Part shown: in pieces, positions 20,160 to 29,987 of the stretch
Layout: each line of letters opens with the position of its first letter
Position numbering within the stretch: the first letter of the stretch is position 1
Source of the DNA: Clostridiales bacterium
Lineage (GTDB): Bacteria; Bacillota; Clostridia; Oscillospirales; Oscillospiraceae
Direction of reading: 5' to 3'
NCBI GenBank assembly: GCA_022787565.1
Contig: JALFVN010000031.1
Span: 1 to 43,387 of the forward strand
Length of the DNA: 43,387 nt
Translations under genes and position numbers: made by a program
Notes under the pieces: model-generated
What the model saw: only the letters and a program-made list of their open reading frames with translations
Databases searched by the model: none
Told to the model about the DNA's origin: nothing

Positions 20160-20408
20160 ATGGACGGAGCGTTCTGCCTGGGGCGGATGGAGCCGGAAAT
20201 GTCAGGCCGTGTGCTGGCGCTGCACTGCGCACCGGCCCTGTCCCGCAGGCTTTCGGATATGGGGGTATTCCCCGGCACGGAGATCCGCTGTCTGGCCCAA
20301 AGTCCCCGGGGTGATCTGACGGTCTGCCTGATCCGGGGCGCTGTGGTGGCTCTGCGGCGGCGGGACTGTGAAAATATCCTGATGGGAGGGGCGGAGAATG
20401 AGATTTGA
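20160..20408 (+). CDS. feoA: Ferrous iron transport protein A
   Basis: An 82-residue SH3-like protein with GRVLALHCAPALSRRLSDMG and VFPGTEIRCLAQSPRGD, the FeoA signature. FeoA is a small cytoplasmic partner of the FeoB channel. The frame overlaps feoB by 11 bp, showing tight coupling. The start ATG follows GGAAGGGTCTTT; a closer in-frame ATG is not better placed. Confidence 0.9.
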   Translation: MDGAFCLGRMEPEMSGRVLALHCAPALSRRLSDMGVFPGTEIRCLAQSPRGDLTVCLIRGAVVALRRRDCENILMGGAENEI

Positions 20409-22278
20409 GCATGAGGGGCATGGGCGGGCCGGAAACCGGCCCATCATCGCCCTGGCGGGGATGCCCAATGTGGGCAAAAGCACACTCTTTAACGCCCTCA
20501 CCGGGCTGCGGCGTCACACCGGCAACTGGACCGGCAAGACCGTAGGCGTGGGGCTGGGGCGATGCCGGGGGCAGGATTGGATCATTGCCGACCTGCCCGG
20601 TACATATTCCCTGACGGGCCGCTCTCAGGAGGAGTGCATTGCCGGGGAGTTTTTGCGCCAGGGAAGGGCCGCCCTCACCGTTGTGGTCTGCGACGGCAGC
20701 TGCCTTGTCCGTGGACTGGCGCTGTCATTGCAGGTGATGGCCCTGGGGACGCCGGTGCTGGTCTGCGTGAATCTGCTGGATGAAGCGCGGCGAAAGGGAC
20801 TGGAGATCGACCTTAAGTCCCTGGAACAAAAGCTGGGCGTGCCCGTCGTCGGCCTGGTGGCGCGGAAGCGAGGGAGCCGGAAGCGCTTTGTTCAAGCCGT
20901 AGGGGCGACCCTTGCGGTCGCCCGCGAGACCGGAATGTCTGACGGAGATAATACAAGCGGGCGACCGCAAGGGTCGCCCCTACACTCCTCCGGAATATCC
21001 GGCGTTGATGAGGAAAGGGCCTACGCCCGGGCGGAGGAGCTTTGCCGTCAGGTGGTGAAACAGAGCGGCCATCATCCGCTCTGGGGGCGGCTGGACCGGC
21101 TGCTTACCGGGCGATTTACCGGAGGGGCCGTGATGCTTCTGATGCTCCTTGGCCTGTTCTGGCTGACGGTCAAGGGCGCAAATTATCCCTCGGCCCTGCT
21201 GTCCCGTCTGCTGTTTTCACTGGAGGGGCCGCTTGACCGCGCTCTTGCCGCCCTGGGCGCACAGGAATGGCTCTGCGGTATGCTCTGCCAGGGGGCTTAC
21301 CGTACTCTTGCCTGGGTGGTGGCCGTCATGCTGCCGCCCATGGCCATCTTTTTTCCCCTGTTCTCCCTGCTGGAGGAGCTGGGTTATCTGCCAAGGGCGG
21401 CCTTCAATCTGGACCGGCCCTTTGCCGCCTGCGGCAGCTGCGGCAAGCAGGCCCTGTGCATGTGCATGGGCCTGGGCTGCAACGCCGCCGGGGTGGTGGG
21501 CTGCCGGATTATCGAGACCCGGCGGGAGCGGCTGCTGGCCGTACTGACCAACAGCTTTACCCCCTGCAACGGCCGTTTTCCCACCCTCATCACCCTGACT
21601 GGCTTGTTTTTTGCCTCCGGGGGTCTGGGGCAGGCGGCGGTGATGACCGGGCTGATCCTCTTCTCCGCCGGAGTGACTCTGGCGGCGACAAAGCTGCTGT
21701 CCCTGACGCTTCTGCGGGGAGAGCCGTCTCCCTTCGTGCTGGAGCTGCCTTCCTGGCGGCCGCCCCGGATCTCTCAGGTGCTGCTGCGCTCGCTGCTGGA
21801 TCGGACCCTCTCCGTGCTGGGCCGGGCGGCGGCAGTGGCGGCCCCGGCAGGGGCTGTGCTCTGGCTTCTGGCCAATGTACGGATAGGGGAGGGGAGCCTT
21901 TTGACCCATATGGCAGCGTCCCTGGAGCCGATAGGCAGCTTTCTGGGCATGGATGGGGCGATTCTGCTGGGCTTTATTCTGGGCCTGCCCGCCAACGAGA
22001 TCGTGCTGCCCGTGATTTTGATGATTTACACCGCCGGGGGAAGTCTGGCGGAGATCGGAGACACTGCCGCCCTGGGCACCCTGCTGACCCAAAACGGCTG
22101 GACGACGGCGACAGCGGGCTGTGTCATGCTTTTTTCCCTGCTGCACTGGCCCTGTTCCACCACCCTTTTGACCATAAAAAAAGAGACCGGCAGCCTGGGC
22201 TGGACGGTCCTTGGGGCAATATTGCCCACAGCGGTAGGAATCATTATTTGTGCGCTTGTTGGGACGATTTGCCGGTGA
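20398..22278 (+). CDS. feoB: Ferrous iron transporter B, carrying an in-frame repeat insertion
   Basis: A 626-residue Fe(II) transporter. The N-terminal G domain shows G1 GMPNVGKST, the switch region RRHTGNWTGKTVG, G3 DLPGTYSL and G4 NLLD. After a helical spacer come the membrane helices (about 240 to the end), with Gate motifs around CGSCGKQALCMCMGLGCNAAG and FTPCNGRFPTLITL (both split by loop residues). The sequence is shorter than the usual 650-750 residues. Residues about 168-195 come from a palindromic repeat (20899-20983) that keeps the frame open and falls in the linker between the G domain and helical region, where it may be tolerated. GGAGGGG precedes the ATG. Confidence 0.95.
   Translation: MRFEHEGHGRAGNRPIIALAGMPNVGKSTLFNALTGLRRHTGNWTGKTVGVGLGRCRGQDWIIADLPGTYSLTGRSQEECIAGEFLRQGRAALTVVVCDGSCLVRGLALSLQVMALGTPVLVCVNLLDEARRKGLEIDLKSLEQKLGVPVVGLVARKRGSRKRFVQAVGATLAVARETGMSDGDNTSGRPQGSPLHSSGISGVDEERAYARAEELCRQVVKQSGHHPLWGRLDRLLTGRFTGGAVMLLMLLGLFWLTVKGANYPSALLSRLLFSLEGPLDRALAALGAQEWLCGMLCQGAYRTLAWVVAVMLPPMAIFFPLFSLLEELGYLPRAAFNLDRPFAACGSCGKQALCMCMGLGCNAAGVVGCRIIETRRERLLAVLTNSFTPCNGRFPTLITLTGLFFASGGLGQAAVMTGLILFSAGVTLAATKLLSLTLLRGEPSPFVLELPSWRPPRISQVLLRSLLDRTLSVLGRAAAVAAPAGAVLWLLANVRIGEGSLLTHMAASLEPIGSFLGMDGAILLGFILGLPANEIVLPVILMIYTAGGSLAEIGDTAALGTLLTQNGWTTATAGCVMLFSLLHWPCSTTLLTIKKETGSLGWTVLGAILPTAVGIIICALVGTICR
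20899..20983. repeat. Palindromic repeat inserted inside feoB
   Basis: Perfect 27-bp inverted arms (20899-20925/20957-20983; each begins or ends with GTAGGGGCGACC or its complement) flank a 31-bp centre. It resembles REP/MITE-type palindromes that carry GTAGGGGCGACC ends. It is translated in frame within FeoB. Confidence 0.85.
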
Positions 22279-22282
22279 AAAA

Positions 22283-22304
22283 GGGCGGCCGAAAGGGCCG
22301 CCCC
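22283..22304 (+). terminator. feoB terminator hairpin, copy 1
   Basis: GGGCGGCC-GAAA-GGGCCGCCCC begins 4 bp after the feoB stop. The same 22-bp hairpin recurs at 22473-22494 (one base changed) and 22661-22682, flanking each copy of the element between them. Only a short pyrimidine tail (TTC) follows. Confidence 0.7.
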
Positions 22305-22472
22305 TTCAAGGCGTCGACAAAGTTCGACGCCTTGAAAACTTATTCAGGAGTATTCAAAAATACTCCTGAATATAAGCATAGATTGAACGCCGAAAGGGGA
22401 CTCCCGTCCCCTCTCTGCGCTCTCCCCATGCATTTCTATACGCTGCCGATGGCTTTGTCTACAGTCTGTAGG
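22305..22472. mobile_element. Terminator-associated short element, copy A
   Basis: 168 bp, no ORF. Order of parts: 13-bp stem TTCAAGGCGTCGA/TCGACGCCTTGAA (22305-22317/22324-22336), 14-bp stem TATTCAGGAGTATT/AATACTCCTGAATA (22341-22354/22359-22372), a GGGGAC hairpin, then a conserved single-stranded part ending near TTTGTCTACAGTCTG. Flanked on both sides by the feoB terminator hairpin. See also 22495-22660 and 29804-29963. Confidence 0.75.
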
Positions 22473-22494
22473 GGGCGGCCGAAAGGGCTGCCCC
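22473..22494 (+). terminator. feoB terminator hairpin, copy 2
   Basis: Same 22-bp hairpin as at 22283 with one C-to-T change in the right arm. It separates element copies A and B. Confidence 0.65.
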
Positions 22495-22660
22495 TTCAAG
22501 GCGTCGACAAAGTTCGACGCCTTGAAATCTTATTCAGGAGTATTCAAAAATACTCCTGAATAAGCATAGATTGAACGCCGAAAGGGGACTCCCGTCCCCT
22601 CTCTGCGCTCTCCCCATGCATTTCTATACGCTGCCGATAGCTTTGTCTACAGCCTGTAGG
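22495..22660. mobile_element. Terminator-associated short element, copy B
   Basis: 166 bp, nearly identical to copy A (a 2-bp difference after the second stem and a few substitutions). Same order of hairpins. The two copies form a tandem array with period 188-190 bp that includes the hairpin. Confidence 0.75.
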
Positions 22661-22682
22661 GGGCGGCCGAAAGGGCCGCCCC
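22661..22682 (+). terminator. feoB terminator hairpin, copy 3
   Basis: Identical 22 bp to copy 1. It lies between the element array and the convergent methyltransferase gene and is followed by CTATATTATT. Confidence 0.65.
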
Positions 22683-22690
22683 CTATATTA

Positions 22691-23836
22691 TTATTTGTCA
22701 ATCAGCGTGAGCAGCGTCTGGGTAAAGCCGTATTTCTTTGCCAGGGCGCGGCAGGCGGGCAGTTCCTTTTCTCTGGGCGGGCGAACACGCCGGGCACGGA
22801 GCATGATGTTCTTGGGCGAATGCTCAAAATCCACAAACTCGATCATGTCTGTCTTATAGCCCATATCCTCCAAGGCGGAAGCCCGGATGCTGTCGGTAAG
22901 CAGCGCGCAGACACGCTCCTTCACAATGCCGTGGCGCAGGAAAATGTCCAGCTCCCCGGCTTTTTTGATCTGGTTGTTGACCTCATGCTGGCAGCAGGGG
23001 ACGGAGAAAATGTAATCCGCCTGCTTCTGTATGGCATAATACAGCGCGTAGTCCGTGGCGGTGTCGCAGGCGTGGAGAGTCACCACCATGTCGATATGCT
23101 CGTCGTAGAGCTTGTCTTTGGTCACATCCGCCACCACAAAGCGGAGCTTGTCATAGCCGTATCGGGCAGCCACCGCGTTGCAGTGCTCCACCACGTCCGC
23201 TTTCAGATCGTAGCCGATGATGCGCACATCCATGCCCCGCTTCACCGCAAAATAGTAGAACATGATGAAGGTCAGGTAGGATTTGCCGCAGCCAAAGTCC
23301 AGAATCGTCAGGCTTTTCCGCTGTGAAGCGGCAAATTCATCGTCGATAAGCTGGATGAAGCGGTTGATCTGCCGGTATTTGTCGTATTTGGATTTCACAA
23401 TGCGAAAGTCCGGAGTGAATACCCCCAGATCCACCAGCGCGGGGATGTTCTCCCCCTCGGACAGCAGATAGGTCTTTTGCCGGTCGTGGTCCGGGACTCC
23501 GCCGCCGGGGGCGGCCGCCAGGGCTTTGGCAGTACGTCTGTAGCTGCCGTCCCGCTTTAAAACGTACTGGGCAGCCCCTGTGCCGGTGGTGATCAGAACC
23601 TGGCGGTAGCGGCCGTCCAGTTCCTCATCAAACAGGCGTAGAAGCCCCTGCTCGTCCAGATTCTGGTGGTAGGCCTTGTTGTCCCGGAGGCCCTCCGTCT
23701 GAAAAGCCAGGCGGTCCTTCAGCTTCACCGGGCGGATGCTCAGCTTTGTTCAGGGCGCGGCGGCTGTGGGCTGGGAAAACACGGCTTTGCTGAGATCAGG
23801 CAGAGCCAGAGCCAGATCGGTTTTTAAGGTGGGCAT
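22691..23836 (-). pseudogene. Class I SAM-dependent methyltransferase with in-frame TGA
   Basis: The reading frame from ATG 23836 (RBS AAAGGA) gives MPTLKTDLALALPDLSKAVF, then stops at TGA (23752-23750, codon 29) and continues in the same frame with TKLSIRPVKLKDRLAFQTEG to the normal end. The C-terminal 250 residues hold a Rossmann methyltransferase fold: ILDFGCGKSYLTF (SAM loop), VVADVTKD and LHACDTATDYALY. Cysteines in SVPCCQHE follow. This resembles the Methyltransf_32 group, probably acting on RNA or a small molecule, target unknown. A GTG at 23728 could restart translation after the stop and give 345 residues, so function may be kept. Readthrough, mutation or a base error are all possible. 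Confidence 0.75.
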
Positions 23837-29781: not shown

Positions 29782-29803
29782 AAAACGCCCTCCCGGGCGT
29801 TTT
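29782..29803 (+). terminator. Terminator of the zinc-ribbon gene, copy 1
   Basis: AAAACGCCC-TCCC-GGGCGTTTT, 22 bp, starts just after the stop. Its T-run is cut short by the element that follows; the same 22 bp recur at 29964-29985 with the full T-run. Confidence 0.75.
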
Positions 29804-29963
29804 CAAGGCGTCGACAAAGTTCGACGCCTTGAAAACTTATTCAGGAGCATTTAGAAAAAACTCCTGAATAAGCAGGATTAAACGCAGAAAGGGGACTCCC
29901 GTCCCCTCTCTGCGCTCTCCCCATGCAAGTCTATACACTGCCGATAGCTTTGTCTTCAGTTTG
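29804..29963. mobile_element. Terminator-associated short element, copy C
   Basis: About 160 bp with the same parts as copies A and B: stem of TCAAGGCGTCGA type (29802-29833), stem around TATTCAGGAG/CTCCTGAATA with changed centre, AGGGGAC hairpin, and an end TTTGTCTTCAGTTTG. It is more diverged than A and B are from each other. It sits between two direct copies of the zinc-ribbon gene terminator. Confidence 0.75.
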
Positions 29964-29987
29964 AAAACGCCCTCCCGGGCGTTTTTT
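29964..29987 (+). terminator. Terminator of the zinc-ribbon gene, copy 2 (intact T-run)
   Basis: Same 22-bp hairpin as at 29782 followed by TTTTTTGC, thus the complete rho-independent terminator. Confidence 0.8.

Follow-up and report, generated by a model that had tools for sequence, protein, structure and literature searches.

Group IIC introns insert near terminator hairpins, are RNA-based and are not known to have inverted repeats or hairpin duplication, and the target duplications made by DDE transposases are usually short and of constant length. The EFAR repeats of Enterococcus faecalis are reportedly miniature elements of ~170 bp with two stem-loops that integrate at stem-loops of 24-37 bp with unrelated sequences, and this integration is said to delete most of the target stem-loop. 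By that description, EFAR and the repeat family of the present study are alike in size and stem-loop target and unlike in target deletion. Within the IS1182 family, IS1272/TnSha1 of staphylococci targets stem-loops without sequence specificity, according to the available parts of two reports (PMC4923244, PMC5678879), and in the first of these several of the targets are confirmed terminators and the stem-loop is lost with no target duplication (PMC4923244). In the available part of the second, duplication of the whole stem-loop appears in Fig 13 as pathway b, a hypothetical alternative to the replacing pathway a, and the authors assign pathway a to IS1272 (PMC5678879). For ISCaa15, an IS1182-family element of Amoebophilus, 4-bp direct repeats are given in the table of PMC3196728. 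Hairpin targeting by IS1182 members (IS1272) is already known, and in the parts of these sources covered whole-hairpin duplication is only a hypothetical pathway. No report of such duplication by an IS1182 member was found in the mainly open-access literature covered; ISfinder or reviews may note one.

The window analyzed in the present study is the whole 43,387-nt stretch of a Clostridiales bacterium contig (JALFVN010000031.1). Three copies of a ~162-bp ORF-less repeat were observed in the window (22306-22469, 22496-22657 and 29803-29964). In all likelihood, as judged from comparison of sequences, this repeat would be a non-autonomous MITE moved in trans by a DDE transposase of the IS1182 family, with a target duplication defined by structure. 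The features are as follows, with all coordinates in the window.

20398..22278, plus strand: feoB, the gene whose terminator was hit (Pfam FeoB_N, 8.5e-47)
22283..22304, plus strand: left copy of the feoB terminator hairpin (target duplication), from the sequence and from the single hairpin at the homologous site in the relative G062 (L240)
22306..22469, plus strand: MITE copy 1, TCAAGGCGTCGACAAAG ... TTTGTCTACAGTCTGT
22470..22495, plus strand: middle feoB hairpin copy, common to MITE copies 1 and 2, with one mismatch (GGGCTGCCCC)
22496..22657, plus strand: MITE copy 2, with 3/162 differences from copy 1, gaps uncounted
22657..22685, plus strand: right feoB hairpin copy TAGGGGGCGGCCGAAAGGGCCGCCCCCTA, its edge base common with the element
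22691..23728, minus strand: convergent methyltransferase-domain gene on the far side of the array (Pfam Methyltransf_32, 1.3e-40)
29782..29803, plus strand: left copy of the second terminator hairpin AAAACGCCCTCCCGGGCGTTTT, present in one copy only in the relatives G110 and G062
29803..29964, plus strand: MITE copy 3, its edge bases common with the hairpin repeats and therefore ambiguous
29964..29985, plus strand: right copy of the second terminator hairpin, followed by a T tract

In the feoB array, copies 1 and 2 are accompanied by a hairpin present three times, as GGGCGGCCGAAAGGGCCGCCC and close variants of it, and copy 3, located 3' of a small gene, is flanked by two identical 22-bp hairpins AAAACGCCCTCCCGGGCGTTTT. 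A first-pass annotation of the same DNA had noted both feoB-side copies and the 29.8-kb copy, which are present as noted, and had named the upstream ORF as feoB, which the Pfam match bears out. The body length of 166-168 bp given there is to be corrected to 160-164 bp, with no ORF and no transposase gene, and of the direct copies of one 22-bp hairpin described after feoB, direct copies are indeed present, but the middle one is mismatched.

The repeat has the class features of a MITE, being short, multicopy and devoid of a transposase gene. The draft genome of the host (2.63 Mb in 77 contigs) holds 12 copies covering at least 154 of the 164 query bases, plus partials. Matches were obtained in 10 of the 40 genomes searched, the host included; nine of these fall among the 25 genomes of the host genus (host again included), and the tenth gave a single 27-base match. 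The copies start with TCAAG(G/C)(C/T)GTCGACAAAG or similar and finish with TTTGTCTACAGTCTGA, an imperfect terminal inverted repeat for which the family forms are TCAAGGCGTCGACAAAG on the left and, reading inward, TCAGACTGTAGACAAAG on the right. The exact right end (16 bp) was found in four host copies and is changed in the window copies. Similar ends and hairpin duplication were also observed in longer MITE-like elements, 204-217 bp in length (L078, L082, L088 and L097 (G007), and L096 in the host). One host locus, L046 on contig C27, is a permuted copy, with the right half of the element, a hairpin and then the left half, and looks like the remnant of an array. Broken element copies at L046 and L049 are linked by a further repeat, CAGCTTGTCAAAAAAGTCC with an inverted arm after it, and next to copies L042 and L043 lies a dispersed repeat whose core is GACGAAG(A/G)ATCCCGTG; the part of the query holding this dispersed repeat has many matches in G110 and G062.

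Several lines of evidence bear on how the copies were placed. First, the flanks were compared for 35 two-ended copies (12 from the host and 23 from relatives), with both ends found by pattern and 3 reverse readings removed; the 29.8-kb copy of the window, L046, L047, L049, L050 and the fragments are outside this set. A direct repeat of a locus-specific hairpin (score of at least 12) flanks 28 of the 35 copies, compared with 3 of 1190 mismatched pairs built from the flanks of different copies; two of these three control pairs are explained by shared feoB hairpins, and the third joins the left flank of L101 with the right flank of L015. The best stem begins at most 2 nt from the element in 29/35 left flanks and 32/35 right flanks. 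The host copies sit at differing stem-loops, although for L045 and several fragments among the host copies no clear hairpin was seen. The hairpin is a property of the site, not of the element, and the possibility raised by the first-pass annotation, that one invariant flank hairpin forms part of the element, is excluded by the variation of the hairpins from locus to locus and by the absence of the element in relatives at 12/12 host loci compared. With respect to the terminator, 15 MITE copies lie in one orientation and 6 in the other, with 7 ties and 7 skipped, a weak lean that we do not trust, and the IS copies described below show no bias (19 versus 18, with 6 ties).

Second, the ends of the MITE are those of insertion sequences encoding IS1182-type transposases. 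At a contig edge of G017, an IS1182-type gene (L108) has the end TCAAATTGTCGACAAA ~30 bp past its stop, and relatives of this gene were detected in 24 of 102 genomes of the genus. With the genus IS1182 query, nothing related was detected in the draft genome of the host; the autonomous enzyme for its MITE would have been lost, be missing from the assembly or come from another source. A protein search of the genus gave 27 loci, of which four (L113-L116) have an end pair (at most 3 mismatches) around the gene, and so the other IS1182-type genes have other ends, no ends or cut contigs. The ends are TCAGCCTGTAGACAAA and TCAGACCGTAGACAAA in L113, and TCAGACTGCAGACAAA and TCAGACCGTAGACAAA in L114. 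Each of the six tested transposases scores above the cut-off of the IS1182 model NF033551 (444.8 bits for L113, against 270), and the PF13751, PF05598 and PF01609 domains are present in 3/3 IS1182 transposases. IS1634, considered as a candidate mover, was rejected. A search with PF13751 and PF01609 yielded IS5-type genes (including L111 of the host) as well as L110 of the host, and also L109, with no matching end pair found around them; L109 passes the IS1182 model, and L108 is the only locus of that search with an end beside an IS1182-type gene.

The L113 protein was also searched for in reference genomes, which gave 100 loci; the 80 best were used. The IS analysis covered 58 loci, comprising 56 of these 80 (24 with cut flanks being omitted) together with L115 and L116, and three of the 58 are without an end pair. 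Matching flank duplication was observed in 43 of the 55 full elements with both ends, compared with 2 of 2970 control pairs. The right end of the MITE family, TCAGACTGTAGACAAA, is found at both ends of 20/55 full IS copies, and the left end matches the IS ends imperfectly; no likeness was found between the interiors of the MITE and the IS, and only the ends were seen to agree. The first-pass annotation had suggested a possible undescribed element class, a suggestion that is not upheld, since the ends tie the element to IS1182-family insertion sequences and the hairpin preference is already published. It had also held that copies without hairpin duplication would count against its reading; a minority of such copies exists, 7/35 for the MITE (L003, L032, L045, L048, L059, L101 and L104) and 12/55 for the IS, whereas the majority is duplicated. 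In this respect the elements differ from IS1272/TnSha1, in which the stem-loop is removed and no duplication is made.

The duplicated IS copies come from, among others, Lachnospiraceae, Bacillus, Priestia, Streptococcus, Enterococcus, Ureibacillus and Anoxybacillus. Of the eight full copies returned from Lachnospiraceae bacterium GAM79, whose genome is complete, six lie between repeats of a hairpin that is different for each of them, and six carry TCAGACTGTAGACAAA ends; locus L214 of this genome has no end pair. In Enterococcus mundtii, the hairpin is duplicated at both copies (L195 and L196), and this element has matches of at least 99% identity in 242 Enterococcus plasmid records, with ISEfa7 annotated on many of those listed. 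ISEfa7, an IS1182-family element of Enterococcus, has TCAGACTGTAGACAAA ends, a hairpin target and hairpin duplication as for the MITE; compared with ISEfa7, the window element has ~162 bp and no transposase gene, and only the ends are seen in common. Among four plasmid copies of E. faecium, judged by eye, duplication was seen in two (L257 and L260) and not in L258 and L259. The hairpin is also repeated at distant plasmid copies in E. casseliflavus (50.0% identity) and Providencia rettgeri (41.5%), and no hairpin repeat was found at the plasmid copies L263-L266 (22.8-28.8% identity), with inverted repeats likewise not found for L264. These few samples suggest a duplicating clade inside IS1182. 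ISCaa15, with the same transposase family, has 4-bp repeats in the table available where hairpin duplication is found here, and so the hairpin habit is not family-wide in IS1182.

Third, the duplicated length tracks the fold. In-register duplication was examined in 78 copies, namely all 35 of the MITE and 43 of the IS that had been chosen for having a duplication, and was observed in 68 (42/43 IS and 26/35 MITE), with a length of 17-34 bp and a median of 24 bp. Its outermost bases pair with each other in 66/68, and at least 6 pairs run inward from its edges in 66/68; the median number of inward pairs is 10 in register, compared with 1.3 when the windows are shifted by 3-8 nt. Thus, the duplicated piece is the stem-loop itself. 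A duplication whose size tracks the fold points to a transpososome reading both bases of a stem-loop.

Fourth, empty sites were sought, as the first-pass annotation had proposed, and the element is absent in G110 and/or G062 at each of the 12 host loci compared. When the third copy of the window served as query, both relatives matched the two flanks of the 29.8-kb locus (89-92% identity) and not the element, and a single hairpin is present at this site, AAAACGCCCTCTCGGGCGTTTT and AAAACGCCCTTCCGGGCGTTTT, respectively. Eleven further predicted pre-insertion sites were queried against four relatives, and the G110 and G062 regions were then aligned (better flank matches of roughly 79-96% identity); the host copies L045, L046, L048, L049 and the fragments are outside this comparison. 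The same hairpin is found once at nine of the 12 loci. Both flanks align around it at feoB (in G062), at 29.8 kb, L004 and L050 (in G110 and G062), and at L003 (in G062), where the host copy is without duplication; at L002, L005, L006 and L047 one flank is replaced or not alignable. A single diverged hairpin is present at L008 and L096, and at the remaining locus, L007, the relative has a different hairpin, a right flank that is not alignable and no element. The element is absent in relatives with similar flanks, and the insertions are therefore recent on the genus scale. Insertion into a terminator, with the whole hairpin becoming duplicated, as first proposed from the window alone, is thus supported by the locus-specific repeats, the mismatched-flank controls and the empty sites.

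Herein, we propose a joining scheme for these elements. First, the transposase would recognize a stem-loop, probably one that is extruded as a cruciform or exposed as a single strand. As the products suggest, each of the two 3' ends of the element would be joined to one 5' foot of the stem, with the two joins on opposite strands. Gap repair would then copy the whole stem-loop to both sides of the element, so that the duplication would be as long as the stem-loop. Every insertion would leave two hairpins, each a possible new target, and the gene would still have a terminator hairpin ahead of the element, so that little harm is to be expected from insertion. This scheme is that of pathway b in Fig 13 of PMC5678879, as far as the available part of that report describes it. 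We consider it likely that one clade of IS1182-type transposases with TCAGACTGTAGACAAA-like ends makes a target duplication set by the secondary structure of the DNA, with strand transfers at the feet of the stem-loop, and that the MITE family uses this activity and a host gene with its terminator could be transported by it. The TCAGACTGTAGACAAA-like ends occur in Clostridia and Bacilli, with similar ends on one Providencia plasmid. The MITE and IS copies would make the hypothetical duplicating branch of the IS1272 model testable, for which no demonstration was found in the literature covered. Duplication would explain how repeats load the ends of genes while the hairpin persists, and duplicating transposases of the IS1182 type would be natural enzymes for landing in terminators. 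In L122 (G070), the end of an IS1182-type gene is followed by a hairpin that occurs twice, on either side of a short MITE copy, and therefore several elements do load one hairpin.

The fold of the MITE invites other readings. In an RNAalifold alignment of 24 chosen copies, three covarying stems were obtained in place of the two strong stems reported at first, with 24 of 35 pairs changed on both sides, the structure being derived from the same alignment as the covariation test. Pairing was observed in 97.3% of cells, compared with 79.0% in shuffled and 41.6-45.6% in slid alignments; further pair types, one of the five measures, did not exceed the shuffles (33 versus 36.7). The left terminal repeat lies within the first stem, and copy 1 with both flanking hairpins, folded as DNA, gave z = -10.3. 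Compensatory changes in all three helices are consistent with stems kept for a host job, such as RNA 3'-end stability or insulation, in an element whose mobility is past. Arm-to-arm copying during replication can also keep palindromes paired, and the 12/12 loci without the element in close relatives point to recent insertions, so that we regard this reading as unlikely.

The feoB array bears on a second alternative, in which the terminator region contains the element as a constant component, or the repeats were formed via tandem duplication or recombination and not via insertion. The tandem copies have few differences and a common altered right end, and this array may have grown by unequal crossing-over; they also have only 4-7 differences from L002, L004 and L005 elsewhere, and both a second insertion into the duplicated hairpin and unequal crossing-over are possible origins. 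For the family as a whole the alternative is very improbable, as the same element is found at different hairpins in different loci, is missing at the host loci compared in relatives and has ends common to IS elements. Still less probable is a structured RNA or retroelement, for example the remnant of a minimal group IIC intron, inserting after terminators. The strong conserved fold and the terminator-adjacent sites would suit such an element, but the ends are inverted repeats that match those of DDE insertion sequences, and the target is duplicated; in the Rfam search of the window no group II intron was matched and only a tRNA reached the gathering score, and the first-pass annotation was right to set the group IIC intron aside. 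In a similar search, the plasmid element L265 of Mammaliicoccus, which we take from its 16-bp end to be IS1272-like, gave no direct repeat. IS1272-like transposition, in which the hairpin is replaced and the flanking repeats are secondary, agrees with the transposase family and the kind of target in the available parts of PMC5678879 and PMC4923244, but is the least credible reading, as most copies keep repeated hairpins on both sides.

The 12 IS copies in which no flank duplication was seen were examined further. In nine of these (L139, which is L113; L177, which is L114; L115, L116, L148, L186, L190, L197 and L216), a stem of at least 6 pairs lies directly against both IS ends, with differing sequences on the left and right; L140 and L150 have no such abutting stems at both ends, and the left boundary of L167 is doubtful. 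Neither of the two hairpins of L190 was found again in the genome that carries it (at most 2 mismatches). Among the nine, only L148 (AP018536.1) is accounted for; it has an extra, identical 39-bp IS left end ~2 kb upstream of the IS. The resulting 3.66-kb unit (818-4481 in L148) comprises this left end, a 570-aa gene with a chemotaxis-receptor signaling domain (PF00015, 1.7e-35), a hairpin and the full IS1182 element, and direct copies of a second hairpin, GAATTGTGGTGACACAATTC, flank the whole unit. Thus, the enzyme can carry a host gene plus its terminator, a carriage like that described for TnSha1. The remaining unduplicated copies with two hairpins may be rearrangements between copies. At L123 (G054), an end-like sequence, TCAGTCTGTCAAAAAAC, occurs twice in tandem at 787-820, ~700 bp from a match to an IS1182-type gene, and recalls the duplicated left end reported for IS1272.
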